A stretch of 64,000 nucleotides of DNA from Poseidonibacter antarcticus (GTDB taxonomy: Bacteria > Campylobacterota > Campylobacteria > Campylobacterales > Arcobacteraceae), in the NCBI RefSeq assembly GCF_003667345.1, contig NZ_RCWF01000014.1, positions 1 through 64,000 on the forward strand, written 5' to 3'. Below the pieces are notes generated by a model that ran no database searches, was not told where the DNA came from, and saw only the letters and a list, made by a program, of their open reading frames with translations. Position numbers and translations under genes: made by a program. Positions 27,465-29,228 of the stretch are shown one piece after another (positions within the stretch are counted from its first letter, which is position 1; every line of letters begins with the position of its first letter).

Positions 27465-29018
27465 TTATACTTGATGAGAAGTTTGTTTTGATAATCTTTC
27501 TTTTTGAGAAAGATATGAGTTTAAAGCACTAATATATGCTTTTGCAGTTGCTAACATAGTATCAATACTTAAACCATGTCCTACAAATGCAGGCGAGTTA
27601 TCATCAAAAGAAACTCTTGTAGTAACTTTTGCTAATGCATCTTTACCTTCAGATACTGATGTAACTTTATAATCTTTTAATTCACCGTTATATCCAGTTA
27701 ATCTATCAATTGTTTTAAATATTGCATCCATTGTTCCATCACCAATAGCTGCATCTCTCATAATTTGATCTTGGAATTTAATCGCAACAGCTGATGTTGG
27801 AACACCATTTGAACAGTCTGAAATTTGTAATCCAACTAATTCATAAGTTTTATCTTGATTTAAAGCTTCATCTGTGATTAACATTCTAATATCATCATCT
27901 GTTACATCTTTTTTCTTATCAGCTAAAACTTTGAATCTTTCAAAAGCAGCATTTAACTCTTCATCTGTTACTTTATCAAAACCAAAGTGTTCAATTTTAT
28001 CTCTAAACGCAGCACGACCTGAATGTTTACCTAAAATTAATGTAGATTCTTTAAAGACACCAACATCTTCAGCTTTCATAATTTCATATGTTTCTTGATG
28101 TTTTAACACACCATCTTGGTGAATTCCACTTTCATGTGAAAATGCATTTTTACCTACAATTGCTTTGTTTTGTTGTGGTTCTACACCTGTAACTGTTGCT
28201 ACCAATCTAGATGTAGGATAAATTTCGGCTGTATTAATTCCTGTATATAAATCTCCAAAAGCATCTTTTCTAGTTTTAATAGCCATTACTGCTTCTTCTA
28301 ATGCAGAATTTCCAGCACGCTCTCCTAAACCATTGATTGTAACTTCAATTTGTCTTGCCCCATTCATAACTGCTGCTAAAGTATTAGCTGTTGATAATCC
28401 TAAGTCATTATGATTATGTACAGAAATAATTGCGCGATCACCTGCAAAGTCTGATAATTCTTTAACCATTGCACCTAATTCGTTTGGTAATCTATAACCT
28501 ACAGTATCTGGTAAGTTAATAGTTGTAGCACCTGCAGTCATTACAGCATCCATTACTTCTTTCATAAAAGAAATATCAGATCTTCCTGCATCTTCTAATG
28601 AAAATTCAACATCGTCAACAAAAGTTCTTGCATATTCAACTGCATGAATTGCTCTTTTGATTACTTCATCTTCACTCATTTTTAATTTATATTTCATATG
28701 AATCGGTGAAGTTGCGATAAATGTATGAATTCTATGTTTAGGTGCTTTACAAACGGCTAAACCTGATTGTTTAATATCATTATCAATTGCTCTAGATAAA
28801 GAACAGATTGATGAGTTTTTCACTCTTTCAGCAATTCTACTAACAGCATCAAAATCCCCTGGACTTGCTGCTGCAAAACCAGCTTCAATAACGTCAACAC
28901 CTAACTTTTCTAATTGTAAAGCAATTTTAATTTTTTCTTCTGTATTCATTGAACAACCAGGTGATTGTTCTCCATCTCTTAACGTTGTATCAAATACTAT
29001 AATCCTATTTTTGTCCAT
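27465..29018 (-). CDS. leuA: 2-isopropylmalate synthase
   Basis: LeuA condenses acetyl-CoA with 2-oxoisovalerate, the first committed step of leucine synthesis. The 517-residue product has the usual length. It has the HMGL-like TIM barrel with [12 protein letters not shown] (10-21), VSVHNHND-type metal ligands ([10 protein letters not shown]) and HESGIHQDG, then a C-terminal leucine-binding regulatory domain (about 380-500). AAAGGGTG precedes the ATG. Upstream is a leader peptide with tandem leucine codons and a hairpin, so attenuation by leucine supply is likely in addition to feedback inhibition. The leuBCD genes are not in this window. Confidence 0.96.
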
Positions 29019-29104
29019 TGTGCACCCTTTAATAATGTATGTTATTATAACTTTTTTTAAATAAAAAAAGAAAAACTGTAATGTATCTTGTTGATTTGTA
29101 AAAG

Positions 29105-29124
29105 TCTAATTTATAAAAATTAGA
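29105..29124 (-). terminator. Candidate attenuator hairpin before leuA
   Basis: TCTAATTT and AAATTAGA form an 8-base perfect stem with a TTAT loop, followed by CTTTT. The stem begins inside the stop codon of the leader peptide, so a ribosome finishing or stalling on the leader would change its folding. The T run is short. Confidence 0.5.
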
Positions 29125-29197
29125 GAGAGGTTGTAAGTAGCAATGAAGAGTTAACACTTTTGATGAAATGGTTATTACAAAAATTAAATATTTTCAT
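29120..29197 (-). CDS. leuL: Leucine leader peptide of leuA (25 aa)
   Basis: The short frame starts at an ATG preceded by AAAGGAGAG at good spacing. It encodes MKIFNFCNNHFIKSV followed by NSSLLLTTSL and a TAA stop. Leucine makes up four of the last seven residues, three of them consecutive and encoded by TTG, CTA and CTT. The stop codon lies within a stem-loop 80-100 bases before leuA. This matches the pattern of amino-acid attenuator leaders. leuL is used by analogy with enterobacteria; there is no sequence homology to claim. Confidence 0.7.
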   Translation of the reverse strand: MKIFNFCNNHFIKSVNSSLLLTTSL

Positions 29198-29228
29198 AGA
29201 ACTCTCCTTTTGATTTTAAATATGCATA

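Follow-up and report, generated by a model that had tools for sequence, protein, structure and literature searches.

Features of the region upstream of leuA

The locus studied here raises the question of whether a very short open reading frame (ORF) carrying leucine codons, located immediately upstream of leuA, controls the expression of this gene and, if so, by which output. The window, i.e. the whole stretch of 64,000 nucleotides that was analyzed, corresponds to positions 1 to 64,000 of contig NZ_RCWF01000014.1 of Poseidonibacter antarcticus (GCF_003667345.1). The leuA leader and all the features given below lie on its minus strand. The leuA gene (27465–29018) encodes a 2-isopropylmalate synthase of 517 aa, and a Shine-Dalgarno (SD) sequence, AAAGGG, can be read in front of it (29025–29030). 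The leader ORF (leuL, 29120–29197) has 25 codons followed by TAA, its stop codon being separated from leuA by 101 A/T-rich nt, and its predicted product is MKIFNFCNNHFIKSVNSSLLLTTSL, with four Leu among the last seven residues (codons 19–21 and 25). The first three of them form the run TTG CTA CTT (29135–29143), which is retained in relatives, and the fourth, CTC, immediately precedes the stop codon. The strong leader SD, AAAGGAGAG (29202–29210), is also kept in relatives. Further upstream, the promoter P1 (29229–29257) consists of TTGACA (29257–29252) and TATACT (29234–29229) separated by 17 nt, matching the consensus at 11 of 12 positions, and in nearly all of 32 relatives the TTGAC and TATAMT motifs are found at a constant distance from the leader start. 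The ORF of 25 codons, the strong ribosome site and the four Leu codons described in the initial annotation of this DNA are all present in the sequence.

Conservation of the leader among Campylobacterota

The leuA gene was found in 60 relatives and in 298 genomes of the phylum, and 150 upstream regions, representing 15 families of Campylobacterota, were examined. An ORF in which Leu codons cluster toward the end was present 5' of leuA in 122 of these regions and in 13 of the 15 families, these calls being automatic and a few of them, mostly from family f13, weak. The Leu runs persist while the remaining peptide varies between families. Because the leader ORF is conserved at orthologous positions it is more than a chance reading frame, and the presence of a leader peptide 5' of leuA is confirmed. 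The initial annotation had proposed a leader peptide with regulatory Leu codons and had made this proposal depend on Leu enrichment in orthologous leaders. This enrichment is found, and its conservation, together with the rare-codon use described below, strongly supports the proposal. These results also support control of leuA by a Leu leader as a rule across Campylobacterota.

The family of the window (f1), which we take to be Arcobacteraceae, usually has a leader peptide of the form MKIF-x-F-x-N-N-H-FIKSVN-[ST]-LLLL followed by a variable C terminus. Seven f1 regions are leaderless: six in which leuA is placed behind a gene of the same strand, and L024. More generally, the leader is missing where leuA directly follows another gene (e.g. 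L033, L034, L049, and L050). In L024 the leader seems to have decayed by a recent loss; the TATAAT element (P2, see below) and the last part of the leader region are retained, the start codon and Leu run being gone. No leader was detected in families f15 (none of seven genomes) and f7 (a single genome), nor was a comparable leader found upstream of leuC and ilvB in the genome of P. antarcticus. In f15 (L093, L094, L096, L102, L113, L118, and L047), leuA lies directly behind a promoter of TTGACA or TTGAAA type.

Leucine codons and leader peptide sequence

The window leader agrees with the Campylobacterota LeuL leaders in being an ORF of 20–35 aa with a ribosome site and several C-terminal Leu codons directly 5' of leuA, and also in its choice of rare Leu codons, as it uses TTG, CTA, CTT, and CTC whereas TTA makes up 65% of the Leu codons of the window ORFs. 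Across leaders, the Leu codons of the last 12 residues are CTC (197), CTT (136), CTG (128), CTA (67), TTG (21), and TTA (20). Taking as background the window ORFs, which represent the codon use of this one genome (TTA 1091, CTT 338, CTA 135, TTG 76, CTC 14, and CTG 12), CTN codons account for 93% of the leader Leu codons versus 30%, and CTC for 35% versus 0.8%.

The residues preceding the Leu run are conserved at the amino acid level. The pN/pS ratio of leader codons 2–16 is 0.20 and falls to 0.06 for FIKSVN in f1 (pS 0.77, pN 0.046). A second peptide, LPKIEIKN, is common to 36 leaders of six families (L151–L215, e.g. L186, L174, and L160), in which this octapeptide is almost invariant while its synonymous sites are saturated (pS 0.875, pN 0.009, pN/pS 0.011). 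The flanking codons of the conserved peptides have ratios of 0.33–0.82; for LPKIEIKN these are 0.42 over the seven preceding codons and 0.62 over the four following ones. When 84,980 species were scanned blind for LPKIEIKN-x-LL, 65 stretches were recovered, of which 60 had leuA close downstream, four were truncated by a contig end and one was unrelated; Sulfurospirillum, Hydrogenimonas, Nitratiruptor, and Campylobacter concisus are among the named matches. A literature search did not find the motif.

Amino acid conservation of the residues that would occupy the exit tunnel at the stall is a property of arrest peptides, and this sequence pattern suggests a role for the nascent peptide. Moreover, conservation stops where the Leu run begins, consistent with residues that act in the exit tunnel of a stalled ribosome. 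FIKSVN or LPKIEIKN may thus contribute to setting the stall, as in TnaC or SpeFL, a reading compatible with Leu-codon attenuation that we regard as a serious possibility, if short of even odds. The near confinement of LPKIEIKN-x-LL to sites upstream of leuA favors it; a peptide acting in trans, which is also possible, would nevertheless be conserved too. The almost invariant octapeptide makes the use of a nascent peptide by a biosynthetic attenuator directly testable.

A hairpin at the leader stop codon

A hairpin, TCTAATTT-TTAT-AAATTAGA (29124–29105, −4.4 kcal/mol), spans the leader stop codon and is followed by CTTTT. In the initial annotation this stem-loop was placed as starting inside the stop codon; its existence and the adjacent CTTTT hold, and it recurs in f1, but it begins in the last Leu codon. 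Compared with dinucleotide-shuffled downstream sequences, the hairpin is on average more stable in 13 f1 genera (z −12), and this is maintained (z −8.65, 11 genera) when the window's genus g1 and g3, which shares the g1 stem, are left out. By this stability measure, five of the 13 f1 genera have no hairpin, and it was not seen in the six other families in which it was sought. The fold of the whole leader does not go beyond chance (z −0.87).

The hairpin is not a canonical terminator, its stem consisting almost only of A-U pairs with no U-run behind it. A T5 tract at +8 to +32 from the stop codon is found in none of 31 relatives, a consensus scan for a terminator-like site was negative and most other families lack a terminator-like hairpin, so that a phylum-wide intrinsic terminator was ruled out. 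No stable hairpin with a U-run lies between leader and leuA, nor was a conserved, mutually exclusive antiterminator fold detected. The segment TTTGTAA and the two complements with which it had been proposed to form alternative folds are indeed in the sequence; alignment showed that this pairing is limited to the P. antarcticus genome and is missing from the sister species. An Rfam search of the leader region gave no matches, the Leu_leader family (RF00512) being detected neither at the gathering threshold nor at E values up to 5. The attenuator fold as initially drawn is therefore unsupported, given the near-AU hairpin without U-run, the few families with a terminator-like hairpin and the genome-specific TTTGTAA. 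The position of the hairpin, about 10 nt past the final codon of the Leu run, would place it at the mRNA entrance of a ribosome occupying the Leu codons.

Genus g29 (L142, L143, L124, and L125) presents a hairpin of another kind, UGCUAC-NNNN-GUAGCA, formed from the Leu codons and the stop codon and varying in sequence (also GCUGC...GCAGC). It is a better terminator candidate than the hairpins of other genera. The L142 leader type is that of the Campylobacter concisus records.

Pairing of the leader SD with the Leu-codon segment

In the window, GGAGAGUU (29207–29200), from the leader SD region, pairs with AACUCUUC (29152–29145, codons 16–18) in a helix of 8 bp (−9.9 kcal/mol). This 3' arm is directly 5' of the Leu codons in the window and overlaps them in most relatives, and about 72% of the SD pairing in folded leaders lands in the Leu segment. 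Other examples are AGGAGCAG with CTGCTCCT (L029), AGGAGAGT with ACTCTCCT (L031), and AAGGAGTaAATA with TATTcACTCCTT (L037). Among 55 non-redundant leaders of the phylum, the pairing energy of the SD is −10.3 kcal/mol with the native ORF versus −9.0 kcal/mol with swapped ORFs (z −5.2), a value reached by none of 20,000 permutations, and none of 300 synonymous recodings matched the real pairing. With one leader per genus the swap test gave a median p of 0.0005; with one per family it was marginal (median p 0.04, n = 13), and inside the LPKIEIKN group alone it was not significant (p 0.076). The leader SD and the Leu-codon segment are covarying arms, and their pairing would likely keep further ribosomes from initiating on the leader after the first one has departed. 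In Escherichia coli leuL, too, the SD can close onto the final part of the leader ORF (computed, −12.8 kcal/mol), and therefore SD closure may be general in such leaders.

The spacer and a second promoter motif

The spacer between the leader stop codon and the leuA SD (29032–29119) contains 9 C and only 4 G and is a candidate Rho loading stretch. Across the phylum, the first 40 nt 3' of the leader stop have a C/G ratio of 3.0, as compared with 0.91 for a set of 119 other upstream regions taken from related loci. An excess of C over G with a G-poor stretch after the ORF is the pattern of Rho-type upstream ORFs (uORFs), and the genome contains a rho gene. The G depletion at the spacer start fits Rho, being by itself no proof of Rho action, and Rho-dependent early termination would be the most economical output.

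A TATAAT element preceded by a T/A-tract (P2, 29044–29049) is located 26–31 nt upstream of leuA. It is present in 32 of 32 f1 leaders, at approximately 26–37 nt from leuA (46 in one case), whereas in shuffled spacers TATAAT occurred anywhere in a mean of 13 and a maximum of 22 of the 32. Therefore leuA probably has, judging from this sequence pattern, a second promoter outside leader control. Between leader and leuA, a TTTGGGTAAAATTAGAC-like element recurs in f6 (L061–L066, L072, L076, and L085), where it is perhaps a second promoter of its own.

Proposed mechanism and alternative explanations

The explanation that we favor, with a probability of about 0.7, is that the leader is a LeuL-type, leucine-responsive attenuator of leuA. 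We infer a response to leucine, premature termination, Rho as its agent and an active P2, which would operate as follows. The leader ORF would come first in the RNA made from P1. Under a shortage of charged Leu-tRNA, a ribosome would stall at the rare Leu codons close to the ORF end and cover the 3' part of the leader, and transcription would proceed into leuA. With ample leucine, the ribosome would complete the ORF and depart, the leader SD would then pair with the Leu-codon segment and block further loading, and the bare, G-poor spacer past the stop codon would lead to an early end of transcription, most likely via Rho. P2, beside leuA, would give leader-independent expression. The distribution of the leader, including its absence where leuA follows another gene and upstream of leuC and ilvB, the maintenance of Leu runs in differing peptides, their codon choice, the SD pairing and the composition of the spacer in a genome with rho all argue for this attenuator, as does the LeuL of Campylobacter jejuni considered below. 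Against it stand the absence of a canonical intrinsic terminator in most families, the weaker swap tests at family level and in the LPKIEIKN group, and P2 itself, which would allow leuA to bypass the leader. A more specific version, in which Campylobacterota LeuL is a two-part sensor that combines an exit-tunnel peptide with rare Leu codons, SD closure by the Leu segment and a Rho output, is tentative and less likely than not; if true, leucine attenuation would here depend on the sequence of the peptide as well as on codon identity.

Other outputs were considered. A classical attenuator, with the stop hairpin as terminator and the TTTGTAA pairing as antiterminator, is unlikely: the hairpin is real, recurs across f1 genera and adjoins CTTTT in the window, and the g29 hairpin of Leu codons and stop codon has −7.5 kcal/mol, with a U-rich tail in some species, but the AU stem, the lack of T5 in the tails of relatives, the negative consensus scan and the unconserved antiterminator count against it. 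Still less probable is translational attenuation, in which the leader region would hide the leuA SD until a ribosome stalls. Masking the Leu codons does raise the predicted accessibility of this SD in the window's genus; sequestration by the leader was nevertheless rejected, since the swap test gave the leuA SD no pairing advantage with its own leader over foreign leaders (p 0.90) and showed that this SD avoids its own spacer (p 0.996). We give equally little weight to the possibility that the product of the leader is a short RNA of its own or a small protein, with leuA expressed from P2 alone. The nearly fixed distance of P2 in all 32 relatives and the selection at peptide level would agree with it, but families with spacers of approximately 50–60 nt keep the leader beside leuA with no P2-like motif in the spacers read there, and it is hard to see what a run of rare Leu codons would do for a small protein acting on its own.

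Comparison with known leaders

The leader is not new in kind, since LeuL has already been described. According to Porcelli et al. (PMC3847290), who named it in C. jejuni in 2013, it has 28 aa with five rare Leu codons, its RNA ends shortly past the stop codon, transcription attenuation was proposed, and LeuL occurs in most Epsilonproteobacteria with leucine genes in a genome set including three Arcobacter species. Froschauer et al. (2025; PMC11955535) showed translation initiation of LeuL in C. jejuni; their tBLASTn survey recovered leuL from no species other than C. jejuni and its Campylobacter relatives. Hence the earlier remark that attenuation by leader peptides is poorly documented in this phylum is only partly true. 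In their accessible portions, neither PMC3847290 nor PMC11955535 reports the SD:Leu pairing, the peptide-level selection, the lack of a terminator or P2. The new details are selection on the peptide, the covarying SD:Leu pairing, the G-depleted spacer start and the conserved second promoter motif. Campylobacterota LeuL departs from the textbook attenuator in having no terminator in most families, in the covariation of SD and Leu segment and in a near-invariant octapeptide in six families.

The E. coli leuL leader (Rfam RF00512, Leu_leader) shares the short ORF, the Leu run and the position 5' of leuA, but the leader studied here has a different peptide, no GC-rich terminator and no Rfam match. 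Stalling of ribosomes on the E. coli tnaC uORF is tied to Rho-dependent termination. This is also the case for E. coli toiL (PMC12121999), whereas the link to Rho would here be deduced from spacer composition, and the tnaC and toiL uORFs respond to tryptophan or antibiotics rather than to leucine. In the ilv-leu attenuator of Staphylococcus aureus (PMC5794164), the leader ORF is also rich in Leu and its Leu codons are kept in different species, but it has a predicted terminator hairpin with poly-U 52 nt past the stop codon, which the window leader lacks. With the LeuL of C. jejuni and other Epsilonproteobacteria (PMC3847290), the window leader shares an ORF of 20–35 aa, Leu codons toward the C terminus, which in C. 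jejuni are of the rare type, and the location 5' of leuA, the peptide sequence being different from that of C. jejuni (compare the g44 type, MKQIFEISNSVQQKSKDNTFNLLLQLSL). The g44 leaders, of the 28-aa type, fit the published description of C. jejuni LeuL.
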